A stretch of 42,918 bases of DNA from Chitinophagales bacterium (GTDB taxonomy: Bacteria > Bacteroidota > Bacteroidia > Chitinophagales > UBA2359): contig JAEUUX010000084.1 of the NCBI GenBank assembly GCA_016787295.1, positions 1 to 42,918 of the forward strand, written 5' to 3'. Shown piece after piece: positions 19,890-35,137 of the stretch. The number at the start of each line of letters is the position of its first letter. Position 1 is the stretch's first letter. A model generated the notes under the pieces. The model was not told the origin of the DNA and did no database searches. It saw nothing but the letters and a program-made list of their open reading frames with translations. Both the position numbers and the translations under genes were made by a program.

Positions 19890-21182
19890 TTACGAAAAAA
19901 CCACTGATAGGGCAGTTTCAATAGCTTGTTGTGCTTGGACGAGGTCGTTGGTGGTGTGGGCAGCAGATACAAAACCCACTTCATAGCCCGAAGGACCCAA
20001 ATATACGCCACGCTCCAAAAGAGCATGATAGAAGGTGCGGAAATACTGCATACTGCTGGCATCGATTTGTTCGGCAGCGCGAATGGCAGTGTGGTCTTGG
20101 CTAAAAACAATCCAAAATATAGAACCGATGTGCATGAAATAGCAAGGATAGCCGTGCGATTCGCAATGTTGGTTCAAATTGGCTATCCACTGCGCTGTTT
20201 TTTGCTCCAATTGTTCATAAAAACCTTTACTCAAACAGGTGCTTAATTGTGCTATGCCTGCTGCCATTGCCATAGGGTTGCCCGACAGCGTTCCTGCTTG
20301 ATAGACAGGACCATCGGGAGCAATATAGGACATCAGGGTTTTGCTGCCACCATACGCTCCTACGGGCAAACCGCCTCCAATGATTTTGCCATACGTCACC
20401 AAATCGGGAGCAATATCATAATAGCCCGCTGCACCCTCGAAGCCCACGCGGAAGCCCGAAATGACTTCGTCGAAGATAAGCAAAGCACCATTTTCGTTGC
20501 AAATTTGGCGCAAAAAGGCTAAATAATCGCGATTTTGTACCAACAAACCATTATTGGCAGGAATAGGCTCGATGATGATAGCTGCAATATCGGGATTTTC
20601 TGCAAAAGCCTGACGAACGGCTGCCTCGTCGTTGAGTGCCACAACGATGGTCGAATCTGCCACACTTTGAGGCACACCCGCCGACGACGAAATGCCAAAA
20701 GTGACCAAACCCGAGCCTGCTTTGACCAACAAAGAGTCGGCATGTCCATGATAACAGCCTTCGAACTTTAAAATTTTATCGCGTTGCGTATAGCCGCGTG
20801 CAAGGCGAATGGCAGACATTACTGCCTCGGTGCCTGAACTCACAAAACGGATTTTTTCGATAAAACGGTTATTATCCACAATCAATTTGCCCAATGCCAA
20901 TTCGTAGGCAGAAGGAGTGCCAAAGGACGTGCCTTTTTGCATGGCTTCGTATAGCTTTTGGAGTACCACATCGGGAGCGTGTCCAAGGATAAGCGGTCCC
21001 CACGAGCAACAAAAATCGATATAAGTGTTGCCATCTACATCAGTAATATGACAACCTTTGCCACTTTCCATAAAAATAGGGGTGCCGCCAACGGAACGAA
21101 ATGCACGAACGGGCGAACTCACACCACCCGGAAAATACTGTAATGCTTCGCTAAATAATTGCTGGGATTGTTGATGATTCAT
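19890..21182 (-). CDS. hemL: Glutamate-1-semialdehyde 2,1-aminomutase
   Basis: 430 residues from the ATG at 21182 (MNHQQSQQLF). Converts glutamate-1-semialdehyde to 5-aminolevulinate with PLP, in the C5 route to heme. Family marks are 'FPGGVSSPVRAFRSVGGTPIFM', 'DVDGNTYIDFCCSWGPLILGHA', 'RFVSSGTEAVMSAIRLAR', 'FEGCYHGHADSLLVKAGSG', the Asp of 'LLIFDEVISGFRVG', the PLP lysine in 'VTYGKIIGGGLPVGAYGG', and 'AGTLSGNPMAMAAG'. Length is normal. Its promoter is at 21202-21233, and the barrel gene follows closely. Confidence 0.97.
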   Translation of the reverse strand: MNHQQSQQLFSEALQYFPGGVSSPVRAFRSVGGTPIFMESGKGCHITDVDGNTYIDFCCSWGPLILGHAPDVVLQKLYEAMQKGTSFGTPSAYELALGKLIVDNNRFIEKIRFVSSGTEAVMSAIRLARGYTQRDKILKFEGCYHGHADSLLVKAGSGLVTFGISSSAGVPQSVADSTIVVALNDEAAVRQAFAENPDIAAIIIEPIPANNGLLVQNRDYLAFLRQICNENGALLIFDEVISGFRVGFEGAAGYYDIAPDLVTYGKIIGGGLPVGAYGGSKTLMSYIAPDGPVYQAGTLSGNPMAMAAGIAQLSTCLSKGFYEQLEQKTAQWIANLNQHCESHGYPCYFMHIGSIFWIVFSQDHTAIRAAEQIDASSMQYFRTFYHALLERGVYLGPSGYEVGFVSAAHTTNDLVQAQQAIETALSVVFS

Positions 21183-21201
21183 GTTTTGTTTTTTGTGGGC
21201 G

Positions 21202-21233
21202 CAAAAGTACAAAATAATATTGACTTGCCACAA
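21202..21233 (-). promoter_or_regulatory. Promoter of hemL
   Basis: On the minus strand, TACTTTTG (21209-21202) fits TAnnTTTG and TTG (21233-21231) lies upstream at 24 bases start to start. The predicted start is close to 21195, about 13 bases before the ATG. Confidence 0.6.
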
Positions 21234-21321
21234 TTATTTTATGAGGTGCTTTAAACAAAGACAACTGATGTTTCTAAAAATATGCGATGTCTTTGTTTCC
21301 GCTTATTCCGCATAAAAGTTT

Positions 21322-21363
21322 GGCGGCTACCTCTCCCCACAAGGGAAAGTAGCCGCCATTTTT
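21322..21363. terminator. Terminator hairpin downstream of a promoter-driven gene remnant
   Basis: GGCGGCTAC (21322-21330) pairs perfectly with GTAGCCGCC (21349-21357), with further C/G pairs in the loop. ATTTTT follows on the plus strand and AAACTTTT on the minus strand. It lies just past the stop of the fragment at 21381-21494. Confidence 0.75.
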
Positions 21364-21380
21364 GTATGGATACCAATCTG

Positions 21381-21494
21381 TTAGTTTCCGACCGTCACCG
21401 ATGCCACATCACTCCACATACCTGCTTGTTTATCATGGTAGCGATAGATAAGGCGATACTGCCATACTTCGGAGCTACCTGATTCGGGTATTAT
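21381..21494 (-). pseudogene. Possible C-terminal remnant of a secreted/beta-sandwich protein
   Basis: One minus-strand frame reads '...PESGSSEVWQYRLIYRYHD' then 'KQAGMWSDVASVTVGN' and stops at 21381. The W-x-Y-R-x-I-Y-R-x-x-D and W-S-D-x-x-S-V-T-V-G spacing resembles the last strands of an Ig- or fibronectin-like domain. There is no ATG, and the frame runs straight into a -7-like box (CAAAGGTA on the plus strand, 21500-21507), so it is not an intact gene. A terminator follows. It could also be a transcribed non-coding element of the same layout as the array to its right. Confidence 0.35.
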
Positions 21495-21615
21495 TAGCGC
21501 AAAGGTACAATTTTTGTGAATAATTGTTGTTACTTGACTTTTTTTTATTGCCTAAACCTTGAAAATTTTAAAGAAAATTTGGGTTTCGCCTATTGTCAAA
21601 GGCACACCTCCAAAA

Positions 21616-21734
21616 GCAAACATAGGCGCATTGCTGCGCCTATGCTACATTTAACAACCTTAAATTTTTTTCCAAATTATGGAAAAATCCTGTAGTCCGC
21701 ATCGCTGCGGTCGTGTTGTTGTTTTACAAGAAAA
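21616..21734 (-). ncRNA. Putative small RNA, array unit 5
   Basis: Minus-strand -7 box TACCTTTG at 21748-21741, with a start estimated near 21734. The RNA has a 5' hairpin CCGCA-GCGA-TGCGG (GNRA loop, 21697-21710), a middle hairpin TTTTTCC/GGAAAAA (21666-21687) and a terminator hairpin CATAGGCGCA/TGCGCCTATG (21621-21644). A short frame beginning 'MRTTGFFHNLEKNL' lies inside it but is not conserved between units. The ends are estimates. Confidence 0.6.
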
Positions 21735-21759
21735 CAAGCGCAAAGGTACGACAAAAAAA

Positions 21760-21897
21760 CAAAAATAGGTGCATCGCTACACCTATTTTTGTTACTCCTA
21801 ATCATAGATATTTTTCCAAGATGTTAAAATAAAGGTCTTGTCTATGAAAAAAAGATAGTCTGCATCATTGCGGTTCTGTCGTTGTTTTATAGGAAAA
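21760..21897 (-). ncRNA. Putative small RNA, array unit 4
   Basis: The -7 box is decayed here (TATTTTTA, 21911-21904), so expression is doubtful. The 5' hairpin has an ATGA loop instead of GNRA. The middle part can pair CAAGA with TCTTG. The terminator stem is ATAGGTG/CACCTAT (21765-21786), where the C-G pair of the other units is replaced by T-A on both sides. Confidence 0.5.
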
Positions 21898-21920
21898 CGA
21901 GTGTAAAAATACAACAAAAA

Positions 21921-22054
21921 ACAAACATAGGCGCATCACTGCGCCTATGTTATCTTTTCATCTTTTAAAATGTTCAACAGGATCTTTAAATTAAAGATCT
22001 TGATGGAAAAATTCTTGTAGTCCGCATCACTGCGGTCATGTTGTTACAAGAAAA
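21921..22054 (-). ncRNA. Putative small RNA, array unit 3
   Basis: The -7 box is TATCTTTG (22068-22061). The 5' hairpin is CCGCA-GTGA-TGCGG (22022-22035), the middle hairpin is a perfect GATCTTT/AAAGATC (21981-21999), and the terminator is a perfect 10-bp stem CATAGGCGCA/TGCGCCTATG (21926-21949) followed by T-rich sequence on the minus strand. Confidence 0.6.
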
Positions 22055-22079
22055 CAAGCGCAAAGATACGACAAAAAAC

Positions 22080-22211
22080 AAAAATAGGCGTATTGCTACG
22101 CCTATTTTGTCTTTTTTATCCTTTAAATTTTTACCAAGGTCTTCGTAAAGACATTGCTCATGAAAAGATTATTTAGTCCTGCATCGCTGCGGTCATGTTG
22201 TTACAAGAAAA
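22080..22211 (-). ncRNA. Putative small RNA, array unit 2
   Basis: The -7 box is TATCTTTG (22225-22218). The 5' hairpin has a GCGA loop, the middle hairpin is GTCTT-TACG-AAGAC (22139-22152, a UNCG-type loop), and the terminator is ATAGGCG/CGCCTAT (22084-22105) followed on the minus strand by TTTTTGTTTTTTG. Confidence 0.6.
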
Positions 22212-22235
22212 CAAGCGCAAAGATACGACAAAAAA

Positions 22236-22371
22236 CAAAAATAGGCGCATTGCTACGCCTATTTTTTATACATTGACATGAAAAAATTACCAAGGTCTTC
22301 GGGTAAAGACATAGTTATGAAAAAAGCTATAACCTGCATCACTGCGGTTACAAAGTAATGTACATAAAAAA
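22236..22371 (-). ncRNA. Putative small RNA, array unit 1 (first after the TIR genes)
   Basis: The -7 box is TACCTTTG (22385-22378). The 5' hairpin is extended here, TAACC-GCA-GTGA-TGC-A-GGTTA, with both sides changed relative to the other units. The middle hairpin is GTCTT/AAGAC (22295-22310) with a six-base loop, and the terminator is ATAGGCG/CGCCTAT (22241-22262). Confidence 0.6.
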
Positions 22372-22397
22372 ACAAAGCAAAGGTACGACAAAGAAAC

Positions 22398-22425
22398 AAG
22401 ATAGGCTCATCGTAGTGCCTATCTT
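22398..22425 (-). terminator. Terminator of the TIR gene cluster / left-over unit of the array
   Basis: AAGATAGGC (22398-22406) pairs with GCCTATCTT (22417-22425), followed on the minus strand by GTTTCTTTG. It lies 150 bases past the stop of the EAD-TIR gene and has the same core as the array terminators. No array-type 5' hairpin is found in 22430-22576, so it probably ends transcription of the TIR cluster. Confidence 0.65.
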
Positions 22426-22576
22426 AAGCAAACATTTTTTTTTATTGTTGTTCGCAATATCTTACACCGAAATAGATTGGTCTATGCCCTATGATGACAT
22501 ACACACAGCAAAACAATAAAAATGAACGATGAAACTGTAGTATTTTTGTAGATGGATTCATACGAAGATGACAAGA

Positions 22577-23440
22577 TTAGATGATTTTTTGTAATGCCGT
22601 GACAACTTCTAACCAAGCCTCGTCGCGGTCTTGATAGGCAGAAATAGGTTTGCCTTTTTGGGGTAGGGCATTGAGAAAAGCTATGGGACTTTCTTGCCAA
22701 TTGCAAGGTCGCAGGATGATGGGAACGAGTTGGACTGTGCCTGCTTTGTGTCGTTCGAGGGCGGGCTGCAATTCATTTTCCCAGATATATTCGGTGGCTA
22801 AAAAATCGGAACTAAGCAATAGCAAAATAATATCGGCTTGGTTGAGGCGTGTTCTAATTGCTTCGTCCCAAGCATCACCTGCCATGAGGTCGGTGTCGTC
22901 CCAAGGTCTAATTTTGTTGTTTTTGACCATTGGACTGAGGTGGGTACGTAGTTCGTTGAGGTATCTCAAATCAAATTTGGAATAGGAGATAAAAATATCT
23001 TTGGGTTTGTCGGTTGTGGCATTGTTGCTAACATTGTTGTCATCGATTTGGGGAGCGAGGTCGGGTTGTGGTGGTATTGTAGTGTCATTGGAGTTTGATG
23101 TGTGGTTAGTGGAGAGTGTGTTGTTATAATCTGTTTCGTTTTGTTGCATGATAGGCACATTGTTATCCATTGTTTGTTGGTAGTCGAGCAGCATTTGGTC
23201 TTGTTGTACTTCATCAATGAGGTGTAACAAGCTATTGAGAATGCGATTTTGTTCGAGGCGATATTCTTGGAAACTTAACACTCCTGAATGCTTGTCATTT
23301 TCGTTTTGAGCGTAGCGGGCGCGCAGTTGGAGGGCAGCATTGGTTTGTATGCCACATTCATCGAAGTATTTAAAACAAAGTTCGGTGCGTCCTTCTGCAA
23401 CCATTCGTTTGGCAACAGCCGCATTAAAATTGGTAGCCAT
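22577..23440 (-). CDS. EAD11-like effector-associated domain fused to a TIR domain
   Basis: 287 residues from the ATG at 23440 (MATNFNAAV). An upstream in-frame ATG at 23575 would overlap the preceding gene and adds 45 unlike residues. Residues about 5-78 ('VAKRMVAEGRTELCFKYFDE...RYAQ...GVLSFQEYRLEQNRILNSLL') match effector-associated domain 11, an adaptor that pairs with copies in other conflict proteins. Residues 80-145 are an Asn/Thr-rich linker. Residues 146-287 are a TIR domain with 'DIFISYSKFD', 'WDEAIRTRLNQADIILLLLS' and 'ATEYIWENELQPALERHK'; Glu223 falls at the NAD-cleaving glutamate position. Bacterial TIRs consume NAD or make signalling nucleotides on phage sensing. It follows the LRR-Roc-COR-TIR gene by 43 bases, so the two form one operon. 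Confidence 0.85.
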   Translation of the reverse strand: MATNFNAAVAKRMVAEGRTELCFKYFDECGIQTNAALQLRARYAQNENDKHSGVLSFQEYRLEQNRILNSLLHLIDEVQQDQMLLDYQQTMDNNVPIMQQNETDYNNTLSTNHTSNSNDTTIPPQPDLAPQIDDNNVSNNATTDKPKDIFISYSKFDLRYLNELRTHLSPMVKNNKIRPWDDTDLMAGDAWDEAIRTRLNQADIILLLLSSDFLATEYIWENELQPALERHKAGTVQLVPIILRPCNWQESPIAFLNALPQKGKPISAYQDRDEAWLEVVTALQKII

Positions 23441-23483
23441 ATTGTTGTGGATTTTGGTTTGGTGTTTGCTGGTTTGGATAGGT

Positions 23484-26027
23484 TTAGTTATTGGGGCGTA
23501 TGATTTTGCGAAGTGCAACCACAACTTCCGACCAAGCGTCGTTGGGAAATGGAAAACTTGTAATGGTAGTGTCATTGGCGGGCAGTGCGCTTAGGTGTGC
23601 AAAAGGTGCTTCTTTCCAATCGCAAGCGGAGAGGATAATAGGAACAAGGGCGGCTTCGTTCTTTTTGTGTCGTTCGATGGCTTGCTGTATTTCCACGTCC
23701 CAGATGTAGTCGGTGGCTAAGGCATCGGCAGAAATGAGCAACAGAATAATGTCGGCTTGGCGGAGTTCTTGTTTAATGCGTTCGTCCCACAATTCGCTTG
23801 CAACTATCTGGCTGTTATCAAAAGCTCTAATGTCGCCGCTTCTTTTTAGGACGCTAAGGTGCTTCAATAGTTCGTCTTTGTGGTGGCTGTCTTGTTGAGA
23901 ATAGGAGATAAAAATGCGTTTTTGGGGTGTTTGGACGTAACGATGAAAATCGCCAATATGGAAAAGTTGTTGTTTGTAATGAAAAGTAATGGCTTTTTGT
24001 GCAAATTGTTCTTCGAGCAAAATGCGTGGCACAAAGTCTATGCCATTGGCGGTTATCATTTCCTGTACAGAGTCTTTGCCATAGCGAAAGCAAACATCTT
24101 TGATAGCATTGGTGATGTTGTTGATAAAAATACGGTCGGCGGGTGTATTGATATGGTTAAGTGGGTAAAGATTAATGGCTTTTTGGTCAAATTTTATGAG
24201 CAAAATGGTGGTTTCGCCTGTATTAGTGGTAGTTAGGCTTTCGATGACCAAGCCATGTTTCCAACAATAATAGGTAGCAGGATTGATGAGACTTTGGACG
24301 GCACTAAAGATTTGGAACAAAATGGTGCGGTGTATAAAACCAGTAAATTCCATTTTGCTAATTGGGTGCGGAAGGTGTTTGAGCAACAAAGCTATGCCGC
24401 GGTTGGGTTGTTCGGGCAGGTACATTGGTGCTAAGTAGGTAGTGGGAGGTGTTTGGGGCATGGCTTTGCCTTTGGCGATAGGCGTGGCGGGAGTTGCTTC
24501 CAATTTTTTGAAAATGAGGTAATTGTTTTCCAAAAAATCCAACAAGGTGGTGTCTGTAATGAGATGGTCGGTGGTTTCGGCGGTTGAGAGGTCAATTTTA
24601 TTCAATACCTTTTTGATGGCTTCGTTAATGTGGTTAAGGCTGGGTGCAATGCGCTCGTATCCCGATGGAGTACGGTTGTGCAAAATAGTGCCTATGTTAT
24701 GAAAATAGGTAATAACATCTTGGTGGACTTTGGCGTTCATGTCGTTGGGAGTCAACACACTTTCTGCAAAACGTTTCACGGTCTCCATATCCATTAGGAG
24801 ACAAGTTTGTTCTTCGAAAAACTTCTCGAAATTTTTGTAATAAGCAGGTAGGAGGGTGGTGGTACGTGTGAGTTGTTGGGCAATAAAATCTTGTAAATGT
24901 TGCTTAAAAAAAGCCACATTGTTGCCATTTTTTGCCGACATAGTAAAGAAATGAGCGATGTTGGGATAGCATTGGCGCAGGTATTCTTGGTTCAAAAATA
25001 CCTCGTCTTCGCGTTGGTCTACTTTGTTTTGTACCACTAAAATAGGGTAGGAGGGAAGCGGTGCGGGTGTTGTTGTGTTAGGCGAAGGCGGTGTGCTGGT
25101 GGCAGATGCTGTTGTTTTGTTGGCGAATTGTTCTATGGCATCTAACCAATAATGCAAGTCGTAGTACTGGTTATTAGCGGACTCTTGGTCGGGTTGTTTG
25201 TGCCACAATAGAATATAGATGGCGTTGGACGTGAAATAAAGGGTGTGAGTGTTGTGGTAATAGTCCTGTCCGCCAAAGTCGAAATAGCGGATATGAGTAG
25301 TCACGTCATTGTGGCGAATGCTTTTCTCTTTGACCGACAGCCAAGGTGTTAAAGGGCGTGCTTTGGACGGTTTATGGGTCGTTAGCAAACGTTCCAATAA
25401 GGTACTTTTGCCCGCATTGCTATTACCCACCAAAATCACTTTAATCACATTGTTGCTGTAGCTTTGGGTGCGGTCTAAACCTTTGAAATAGTTGATAATG
25501 GCGCTATAACCTGCATCGGCAAGTTCGCGCGGAGGCATAGAAAGGGGGTTGTTGGCGATTTCTATACCGCTATAAGTACCTGCTTTTTGCTCGGTCAACT
25601 GTTCTGCAATTCGGTAATAAAATTCTTTGAGGGGCGAAAGGTCATTGATGAGGTTGTTGCTAATATCCAAATAGATGAGATTCGGGAGGTCTTCGACGGC
25701 TGAAAGGTTGGTCAAGCGGTTATTGGCTAAACGAAGACTTTCTAATTGCTGCAATTCGGACAAACCTTCGGGTAGCTGTGTGAGACCACAGTTGTTGAGC
25801 GAAAGGTTTTTGAGGTTTTTGAGGCGCACCAAACCCGATATATCTTGCAAAGGATTGTTGTCCAACAATAAAATTTCCAAATCAGGCAATTCTTCCAATA
25901 ATGTTGGTAGGGTTTGGAGTTGATACTCATTGAGGTTCAAGACAGTCACTGGGGTGCCTGTTTGGTGTGCTTCTTCTATAGTAGCTTGAATAAGGAAATC
26001 AACATTGGTAGGTATATTATTGGACAT
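23484..26027 (-). CDS. LRR-Roc-COR-TIR protein (NLR/Roco-like conflict protein)
   Basis: 847 residues from the ATG at 26027 (MSNNIPTNVD). Leucine-rich repeats span about 45-135 ('LPDLEILLLDNNPL', 'LKNLSLNNCGL', 'LESLRLANNRL', 'LIYLDISNNLI'). A Roc GTPase follows, with P-loop 'GNSNAGKST' (201-209), 'YFDFGGQDYYHNT' (G3, 248-260) and 'VQNKVDQRE' (G4, 334-337). The COR dimerisation domain covers about 395-690, and a C-terminal TIR domain about 703-847 ('KRIFISYSQQD', 'WDERIKQELRQADIILLLIS', 'ATDYIWDVEIQQAIERHK'; Glu779 at the catalytic position). By analogy with NLR-like bacterial sensors, the LRRs would detect a trigger, the GTPase would switch, and TIR would act on NAD. Prokaryotic Roco proteins with TIR are known, but this exact trio with an EAD-TIR partner is not one I recognise. 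Confidence 0.9.
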   Translation of the reverse strand: MSNNIPTNVDFLIQATIEEAHQTGTPVTVLNLNEYQLQTLPTLLEELPDLEILLLDNNPLQDISGLVRLKNLKNLSLNNCGLTQLPEGLSELQQLESLRLANNRLTNLSAVEDLPNLIYLDISNNLINDLSPLKEFYYRIAEQLTEQKAGTYSGIEIANNPLSMPPRELADAGYSAIINYFKGLDRTQSYSNNVIKVILVGNSNAGKSTLLERLLTTHKPSKARPLTPWLSVKEKSIRHNDVTTHIRYFDFGGQDYYHNTHTLYFTSNAIYILLWHKQPDQESANNQYYDLHYWLDAIEQFANKTTASATSTPPSPNTTTPAPLPSYPILVVQNKVDQREDEVFLNQEYLRQCYPNIAHFFTMSAKNGNNVAFFKQHLQDFIAQQLTRTTTLLPAYYKNFEKFFEEQTCLLMDMETVKRFAESVLTPNDMNAKVHQDVITYFHNIGTILHNRTPSGYERIAPSLNHINEAIKKVLNKIDLSTAETTDHLITDTTLLDFLENNYLIFKKLEATPATPIAKGKAMPQTPPTTYLAPMYLPEQPNRGIALLLKHLPHPISKMEFTGFIHRTILFQIFSAVQSLINPATYYCWKHGLVIESLTTTNTGETTILLIKFDQKAINLYPLNHINTPADRIFINNITNAIKDVCFRYGKDSVQEMITANGIDFVPRILLEEQFAQKAITFHYKQQLFHIGDFHRYVQTPQKRIFISYSQQDSHHKDELLKHLSVLKRSGDIRAFDNSQIVASELWDERIKQELRQADIILLLISADALATDYIWDVEIQQAIERHKKNEAALVPIILSACDWKEAPFAHLSALPANDTTITSFPFPNDAWSEVVVALRKIIRPNN

Positions 26028-26098
26028 GGTTTTGGGATTTGGTGAAAGGAGGAAGGGATAGGAATAATGATGGTGGGTGGAGTTATGGAGATATGTTG

Positions 26099-26749
26099 CT
26101 ACACTCCCATACCCTCCGTTCGCTCCATACAATACTGTTTGAGTTGGTATAGAATGCGCAAAATCTGGCAGGCATCGTCAAAATTAGTGCCGTCAAAAGT
26201 TGAGCTGATAGCATATTGTTTGCCTTCCAAGGTCATAAAATACCAATGCTGCCCAATGACACAACAGCCGTAGATGGGTTTTCCGTCGGTGTTGAGGCAT
26301 TGCCCCACGAGCATGGCGGCGAGTGCTTGACCAAGTGCGTCGCCTTTATAGTCTTGTCCGCGTTTGTATTCGTTGAAAGCAAAAAAAGGAATTTTGGGCG
26401 AACGAAAACCTGTGGCTATCAGTTCGTCTACACGTCCTAACAGAACGATATTATCTATATGAGCTTCCATATTAACTTGGGTGAAAATATTGAAACGCAA
26501 AATTTCTGTGAAACCAACCCATGCAAATATGGGACCAATAAAATGCAAGGACAAATCTTGTTCATTCCAATGGGCGGCATTTAAACGAAGATTATTAGTT
26601 GATTTTCGTATCATATAAACATCTTCCGCACTCAATAACATAGATGTAGTCACCCAATTTTGTAAAATAGGCAGACTAATAGATGGTAATAGATTAAATT
26701 GGGTATCCAAAAAATCTAAAGTACAGTCATTAAAATTAACCGTTTGCAT
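26099..26749 (-). CDS. PD-(D/E)XK nuclease-like protein
   Basis: 216 residues from the first in-frame ATG at 26749 (MQTVNF). A GTG at 26860 would add 37 residues and cannot be excluded. The core reads 'ILRFNIFTQVNMEAHIDNIVLLGRVDELIA' then 'PFFAFNEYKRGQDYKGDALGQALAAMLVG', giving Asp108, Glu127-x-Lys129 and Gln141, the PD-(D/E)XK pattern. The later 'KPIYGCCVIGQHWYFMTLEGKQYAISSTFD' fits restriction-like domains found next to conflict genes and in cyanobacteria. No helicase or methylase is linked. It lies 71 bases upstream of the LRR-Roc-COR-TIR gene on the same strand and is probably the first gene of the same operon, with a promoter at 26900-26907. Confidence 0.7.
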   Translation of the reverse strand: MQTVNFNDCTLDFLDTQFNLLPSISLPILQNWVTTSMLLSAEDVYMIRKSTNNLRLNAAHWNEQDLSLHFIGPIFAWVGFTEILRFNIFTQVNMEAHIDNIVLLGRVDELIATGFRSPKIPFFAFNEYKRGQDYKGDALGQALAAMLVGQCLNTDGKPIYGCCVIGQHWYFMTLEGKQYAISSTFDGTNFDDACQILRILYQLKQYCMERTEGMGV

Positions 26750-26899
26750 AGAAAATGGCGATTTTTTTGAAAAAGCAGGATTATACCCTTTAGTAGTGTT
26801 TGGAATAATAGCCGTTTTTTTAACACAAAAGTCATAAACACACAAAATGCTATGTGGCACACCTAATCCCTCAAACCATAATGCCTTTTATTTGCGTGA

Positions 26900-34758: not shown

Positions 34759-35137
34759 GGGTGGAGCTGGGGGGAGTCGAACCCCCGTCCAGATAAATCA
34801 GTAATATGCTTTCTACATGTTTAGTCCTGTATTAATTGTCGGGCATTAGGCAGGAACAGTTCCTAACCAACCTATACCGTATGCTCAATTGGAATTTGCC
34901 GCCGCATCGAGCCGCCTGCTTTGGCTATCTCAGTTGTTTTGATGGAGTTCCTTTTCGCTGTGTGCTAACCGAGAAAAGCGAGCGAGGAACTAATAGCTTC
35001 TAATTCCTAGAATTAGGCAGCCATTCTGTAGGCGTTGTTGCCAATTATTTTTTCGGAAATTCTGATTTACGAGCTAATGACCAAGTCTCGACATGCTTAC
35101 ATACCAATGTCTTTACTGTCAAATCCAGTGCAACCCC
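34759..35137 (-). ncRNA. ssrA: Transfer-messenger RNA (tmRNA)
   Basis: It rescues stalled ribosomes and tags the unfinished protein. The 5' end GGGGTTG (at 35137) pairs with the 3' CAGCTCC (near 34763) to give the tRNA-like acceptor stem. The T-arm 'GGGGGTTCGACTCCCCC' and the 5' 'GGATTTGAC' region are intact. The tag reads GNNAYRMAA, with its stop TAA at 35013-35015 and codons 35016-35042; the resume codon is inferred to be GGC from its match to the 9-residue tags of relatives. The ends are set by the stem and CCA is not fully encoded (ACC only), so CCA would be completed after transcription. Promoter at 35152. Confidence 0.93.

Follow-up and report, generated by a model that had tools for sequence, protein, structure and literature searches.

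A minus-strand tandem array in a Chitinophagales bacterium that is probably a multicopy family of small-RNA genes

What is encoded by a row of five similar units lying between two protein genes? The question is raised by positions 21617-22385 of the window, by which we mean the whole stretch of 42,918 nucleotides that was analysed (contig JAEUUX010000084.1). Here, five diverged units follow each other head to tail on the minus strand at a spacing of 157-163 nt, flanked by a TIR/EAD11-domain gene (22577-23575) and, downstream, by a class-III aminotransferase gene (19890-21233). All have the same plan of promoter region, leader, small hairpin (hairpin 1), variable middle and intrinsic terminator. 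We assign a probability of about 0.68 to the reading that they form a tandem multicopy family of small-RNA (sRNA) genes. Judged from the letters, the array is probably functional, although one of its copies is probably silent; arrays of this kind are known, but the family is unrecognised. The units are listed below in the order of transcription (U5, U4, U3, U2, U1), preceded by a hairpin seen in the sequence upstream of them.

22398-22425, minus strand: sixth, decayed terminator-like hairpin upstream of U5 (9-pair stem, 10-base loop)
22236-22385, minus strand: unit U5; -7 box TACCTTTG 22378-22385; hairpin 1 22333-22348; UUUYCAU 22317-22323; terminator stem-loop 22237-22266
22079-22225, minus strand: unit U4; -7 box TATCTTTG 22218-22225; hairpin 1 22178-22193; UUUYCAU 22160-22166; terminator 22081-22108
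21922-22068, minus strand: unit U3; -7 box TATCTTTG 22061-22068; hairpin 1 22022-22036; UUUYCAU 22003-22009; terminator 21924-21951
21760-21911, minus strand: unit U2; decayed box TATTTTTA 21904-21911; imperfect hairpin 1 21860-21874; UUUYCAU 21844-21850; terminator 21758-21793
21617-21748, minus strand: unit U1; -7 box TACCTTTG 21741-21748; hairpin 1 21697-21711; UUUYCAU 21679-21685; terminator 21619-21646

The original prediction of five minus-strand tandem units with a period of ~158 bp was borne out. TRF reported a period of 157 over 21679-22264 and 22006-22324, and a second repeat search recovered the same family. A pattern for hairpin 1 and the terminator core, derived from these units, gave exactly five matches and none in 100 shuffles. 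The middle of U1 is ~20 nt shorter than in the other units. Coding had been considered unlikely, and no open reading frame (ORF) of at least 60 aa overlaps 21560-22430 (the longest has 59 aa).

Promoters were assessed against the genome's own. The sample consisted of 40 other stretches of the genome and the window (748,624 bases) and yielded 301 genes preceded by 100 nt or more of unoccupied DNA. TAnnTTTG was present within 150 nt upstream of 137 of these genes; the boxes number 157, where base composition predicts 26, and the promoter consensus of the genome lies near GTACCTTTGC. A weight matrix was built from 126 gene-promoter sites with the window left out, using 817 boxes inside coding sequence as controls. 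U1 scored 19.4 (46th percentile of gene promoters; 0.9% of the coding-sequence boxes as high), U4 16.2 and U3 16.0 (both 29th percentile; 2.1% as high), all three within the range of the 126 gene promoters. The score of U5 was low (11.3; 14th percentile; 7.1% as high) and that of U2 very low (5.3; 7th percentile; 29.7% as high). A TAnnTTTG box had been announced for every unit; this holds for U1, U3, U4 and U5, and fails for U2, in which the last G of the box is lost (TATTTTTA); the same prediction gave only four 5' ends. By sequence, four of the five units have a putative promoter of their own, that of U5 being weak and that of U2 decayed, and U2 is probably silent through loss of its promoter. 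The array boxes have no TTG at the usual -33 place, which had been named as a weak point; the observation stands but carries little weight, since TTG stands there in just 23% of the 117 boxes that were aligned upstream of this genome's genes. A further minus-strand box (TACCTTTG, score 20.9) was noticed at 21507, in the part 21380-21507 of the window; judged by eye, it is followed by a protein-like fragment and a hairpin near 21311-21368.

A terminator for each unit, also part of the original prediction, was recovered. Ten terminator-like sites were found on both strands of 21200-22600 against 1.4 expected, and five of them, all on the minus strand, coincide with the ends of the units. The loops on the minus strand are of GNRA type in 5/5 terminators and in four of the five first hairpins. 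The upstream hairpin at 22398-22425 was not among the matches of this search; the terminator half of R1, a covariance model built from the five units, gave a partial match of 16.1 bits at 22398-22464. This hairpin is perhaps the end of the TIR gene transcript or the remnant of a unit.

The combination of promoter and terminator was then scored as a layout, defined as a box scoring at least 11.3 followed by a strict terminator 60-180 nt further on, the threshold being that of the weakest intact array box and set post hoc. The array contains four such layouts in less than 800 bases, which are not independent because the units are homologous copies. In the other DNA (705,706 bases in 40 stretches, ~13% of the genome) there were four cases, a single one of them without an ORF of at least 60 aa, and this was a tRNA-Met gene. 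As the one outside match is a true non-coding RNA gene, the layout test may serve to find sRNA genes elsewhere.

Conservation across the five units is uneven. Invariant columns number 11/18 in the upstream part, 7/12 in the box, 6/20 in the leader, 12/15 in hairpin 1, 9/47 in the middle and 21/30 in the terminator; box, hairpin 1 and terminator together have 40/57 against 9/47 for the middle (Fisher p 2e-7). Hairpin 1 has a mean pairwise identity of 0.89, the terminator of 0.85, the leader of 0.66 and the middle of 0.57. In the terminator all 12 pairs are kept in all five units, and both sides have changed at three of them. For hairpin 1, 88% of the cells are paired, and the alignment used leaves one position without a partner in three units. 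The 5' hairpin CCGCA/TGCGG, which had been claimed for every unit, is perfect in U1 and U3, can pair with a bulged A in U4 and U5 and is imperfect in U2. Five sequences are few, and the shuffle control for covariation was exceeded only moderately: 5 of 500 shuffles reached the covariation score and 41 of 500 reached the count of pairs changed on both sides. Folds of whole units beat shuffles (z -2.5 to -5.9), much of the effect coming from the terminator; with the terminator excluded, the fold from leader to middle gave z values of -2.6 (U1), -1.3 (U2), -2.8 (U3), +0.5 (U4) and -2.8 (U5). Folded alone against dinucleotide shuffles, the middle reached p values of 0.09, 0.02, 0.14, 0.26 and 0.29 in U1 to U5. 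The predicted variable middle hairpin is thus not established, because the middle alone falls below 0.05 only in U2 and is at chance level in the other four units. Taken with the promoter scores and the rarity of the layout, the conservation pattern gives partial support to an sRNA-gene layout.

The alternative that survives best is an ordinary intergenic tandem duplication, in which slippage or unequal exchange multiplied a stretch of terminator and promoter, and the copies have drifted since without RNA function. Tandem repeats with a period of at least 50 occur in 8 of the 40 sampled stretches, so tandem duplication is in itself common in this genome, and the decayed box of U2 agrees with drift. 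Drift should however be even along the unit, yet the conservation of box, hairpin 1 and terminator does not extend to the middle, and changes in the terminator are compensated; part of this pattern could also be imitated by gene conversion. We regard duplication alone as unlikely. Two other repeats of the genome were observed in passing. At a contig end (L074 1-339, G000:C212), a period-140 repeat of 2.4 copies with a TACCTTTG box in each stands just upstream of a long ORF and is a duplicated promoter region. In L087 (15563-16581, G000:C188), a period-328 repeat of 3.1 copies that are 97% alike is intergenic-looking and has a minus-strand TAnnTTTG in each copy.

The distribution of the array bears both on this alternative and on a second one, a mobile or palindromic repeat such as a MITE, REP or attC-like array. 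The units are indeed GC-rich inverted repeats in AT-rich intergenic DNA and are palindromic on both strands. BLASTN with a two-unit query in the own genome (5.42 Mb) nevertheless found short pieces only and no second copy, by which a mobile repeat is largely refuted; in addition, BLASTN against phages and plasmids gave no match and cassette ORFs are absent. A known transposable repeat, one of the cases that were to overturn the original prediction, is accordingly not supported, and we rate a mobile element as highly improbable.

Model R1 gave 143-156 bits on its own units, and its best score over the 705,706 sampled bases was 23.1 bits. At L068 of this genome, a second, low-scoring pair of R1 matches (19.8 and 19.3 bits) was rejected as a different row of terminators. 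The row itself (L068 7700-7970, G000:C254) has three terminator-like hairpins (GAGCCGC.../...GCGGCTC) ~70 nt apart, no -7 box was seen there, and ATGAAAAAA starts of very short ORFs (MKKNFFIKEP..., MKKTFFFIER...) lie between the hairpins.

In 19 other genomes of the family, among which none of the same genus was listed, R1 found nothing convincing. Two weak matches at E <= 1 in the relatives G009 and G015 (32.5 and 30.7 bits) were rejected; one (L038) breaks pairs in both stems and the other (L039) is without hairpin 1. At E <= 0.01 there was nothing in 395 other genomes of the order, 394 of the class and 394 of the phylum (draws partly overlapping); diverged relatives can escape these searches, because stricter filters were used and seven first-look candidates were taken per genome, among the matches listed. 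In 10 of 59 other genomes BLASTN gave matches of 21-53 bases, which were rejected as covering no whole unit. The exact pattern had no match in viral contigs and one in genome_contigs, in Paenibacillus rhizophilus, which was discarded as about the number estimated for chance in 257 billion bases in a search that may omit records from the own genome or very near ones. Since no homologue was found outside the own genome, conservation between species is without support, a point in favour of plain duplication.

In an Rfam search of the whole window only the tmRNA gene (34759-35137, minus strand, tag peptide GNNAYRMAA) reached the gathering score. At E <= 5, 49 matches fell in 21200-22700, all below gathering and spread over unrelated families, and these were treated as chance. 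The original prediction had not recognised the family; in the array no Rfam family reached its gathering score, and R1 gave no convincing homologue in the other genomes searched. Searches of open-licence papers on tandem or multicopy sRNAs turned up no description of the array.

The flanking genes were also followed in relatives. The downstream aminotransferase is present in 16 of the 19 other family genomes; within at most 1,500 bases on either side of it, no other window protein was found at 1e-5 and the array model gave at most 16.8 bits. The TIR gene has matches in 14 of 59 other genomes, and its protein has 14 in its own genome. Directly upstream of the array lies what may be a defence or conflict cluster, a minus-strand run at 22577-26860 encoding one protein with TIR and EAD11 domains, one of Roc-LRR-TIR type and one that matches PD-DExK weakly. 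Tandem repeats occur in five of the TIR loci compared in relatives (L107, L110, L126, L128 and L135). Those at L107 2251-2880 and L126 146-480 have periods of 127 and 148, contain inverted repeats and lie beside TIR-domain genes; as relatives of the array they were rejected, their sequences being unlike it and TAnnTTTG occurring once in the five L107 copies and not at all in L126.

Three described sRNA families were compared with the array. NsiR1 of Nostoc sp. PCC 7120 is described as 12 tandem sRNA copies with individual promoters of DIF1 type, ~60 nt long and under nitrogen and heterocyst regulation; in the same account, diverged copies can differ in target, and one interaction is predicted within a translation initiation region (PMC9045159). 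The likeness, of layout and not of sequence, is in the homologous tandem units, with a terminator in 5/5 array units by sequence; NsiR1 differs in being a cyanobacterial RNA of ~60 nt with DIF1-type promoters, whereas the array has predicted RNAs of 120-140 nt, a Bacteroidota-type -7 box and no known targets. Several LhrC copies of Listeria monocytogenes lie in tandem. The account of LhrC1-5 gives five copies of 111-114 nt, acting additively, which pair through UCCC seeds with mRNAs in or close to the translation start region and thereby repress them (PMC6794450). Compared by description and not by sequence, five sRNA copies and pairing at the start region (predicted and proposed, respectively, for the array) are common to both; the phylum is different and the LhrC seeds are UCCC motifs. 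FopS (RF04319) of Bacteroides is presented as a multicopy, terminator-ended family of 14 paralogs at several loci, which is bound by an RRM-1 protein and represses translation near the start codons of SusC-type mRNAs; its consensus, as given there, has a single-stranded 5' stretch and a terminator and no 5' hairpin (PMC11697453). Start-codon pairing in Bacteroides is reported in the same source for FopS, GibS, MasB and BatR (PMC11697453). The array resembles FopS as a multicopy family with a terminator in what is presumably the same phylum, but it occupies one place instead of several loci and its units add a 5' hairpin and a middle (a comparison of architecture, the R1 seed of FopS apart). 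That the array is FopS was rejected, the best match of RF04319 having 22.9 bits against a gathering score of 56. One RRM_1 protein is encoded in the genome. By these comparisons, the array looks like an unrecognised sRNA family whose plan has precedents in a few other bacteria.

How would such a family work? Each unit would be transcribed from its own -7 box, of the type used by the genes of this genome, and the DNA upstream of each following promoter would be supplied by the terminator and T-tract of the preceding unit. U1, U3, U4 and U5 would yield predicted RNAs of about 120-140 nt, each a constant scaffold (leader, hairpin 1 and terminator) with a fast-changing middle. Most likely, we infer, the RNAs would act in trans via base pairing, and multiple copies could provide dosage or differing targets.

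A possible seed is UUUYCAU, which ends 16-19 nt past hairpin 1 in all five units (UUUUYCAU in four and CUUUUCAU in U4). Its complement AUGRAAA resembles a common gene start, the commonest first octamer of genes being ATGAAAAA (27 of 377 sampled genes), and pairing with start codons is therefore proposed: the motif would pair over AUGRAAA starts, the variable flanks would select the mRNA and translation would be blocked. The target tests for this step came out negative or weak. The motif has an unpaired probability of 0.96 in U5, 0.52 in U3, 0.49 in U4, 0.33 in U2 and 0.14 in U1. Duplex energies with the 377 sampled gene starts were no better than those of shuffled RNAs (six shuffles per unit). 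Anti-start patterns of 18 nt with at most three mismatches, run over the whole genome for U3, U4 and U5, exceeded the backwards control for U3 (20 vs 7) and U4 (10 vs 4) and did not for U5 (28 vs 43). Likely gene starts made up 9 of the 55 non-self matches; by eye, eight of the nine have signal-peptide-like beginnings, which is in part to be expected, because such genes often begin MKK. One of the nine is a TonB-dependent receptor of SusC type. The complement of the U3 middle has three mismatches in 18 to the start of a SusC-type TonB-dependent receptor, which is at chance level in itself. We hold start-codon pairing as a tentative proposal with the odds against it. Rather less probable, and frankly speculative, is an extension in which the array would be a chromosomal bank of re-aimable repressors with a constant scaffold, a fixed anti-start element and a swappable middle that would direct each copy to a different mRNA, of a secreted protein or of SusC type, and evolving by duplication and recombination within the array.

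On the plus strand the motif becomes an ATGRAAA at an equivalent position of all five units, which would suit short peptides, or an array of type I toxin-antitoxin genes of which the minus-strand RNA is the antitoxin (Sib/Ibs being the model), but the ensuing frames are short and differ (29 codons in U1, 4 in U2, 5 in U3, 38 in U4 and 13 in U5), none in the region reaches 60 aa and the sole plus-strand TAnnTTTG of the array sits inside a terminator stem (21784), so these readings were rejected as very improbable.

To our knowledge, Bacteroidota are largely without Hfq. If expressed, the sRNA genes of this array would represent an unrecognised tandem-array family in Bacteroidota with a layout known from cyanobacteria. 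They would give access to how a phylum largely without Hfq uses paralogous sRNAs, and to the divergence of target choice among sRNA gene copies inside one array. A test for promoter and terminator that is calibrated on a genome's own promoters may also help in finding sRNA genes elsewhere.
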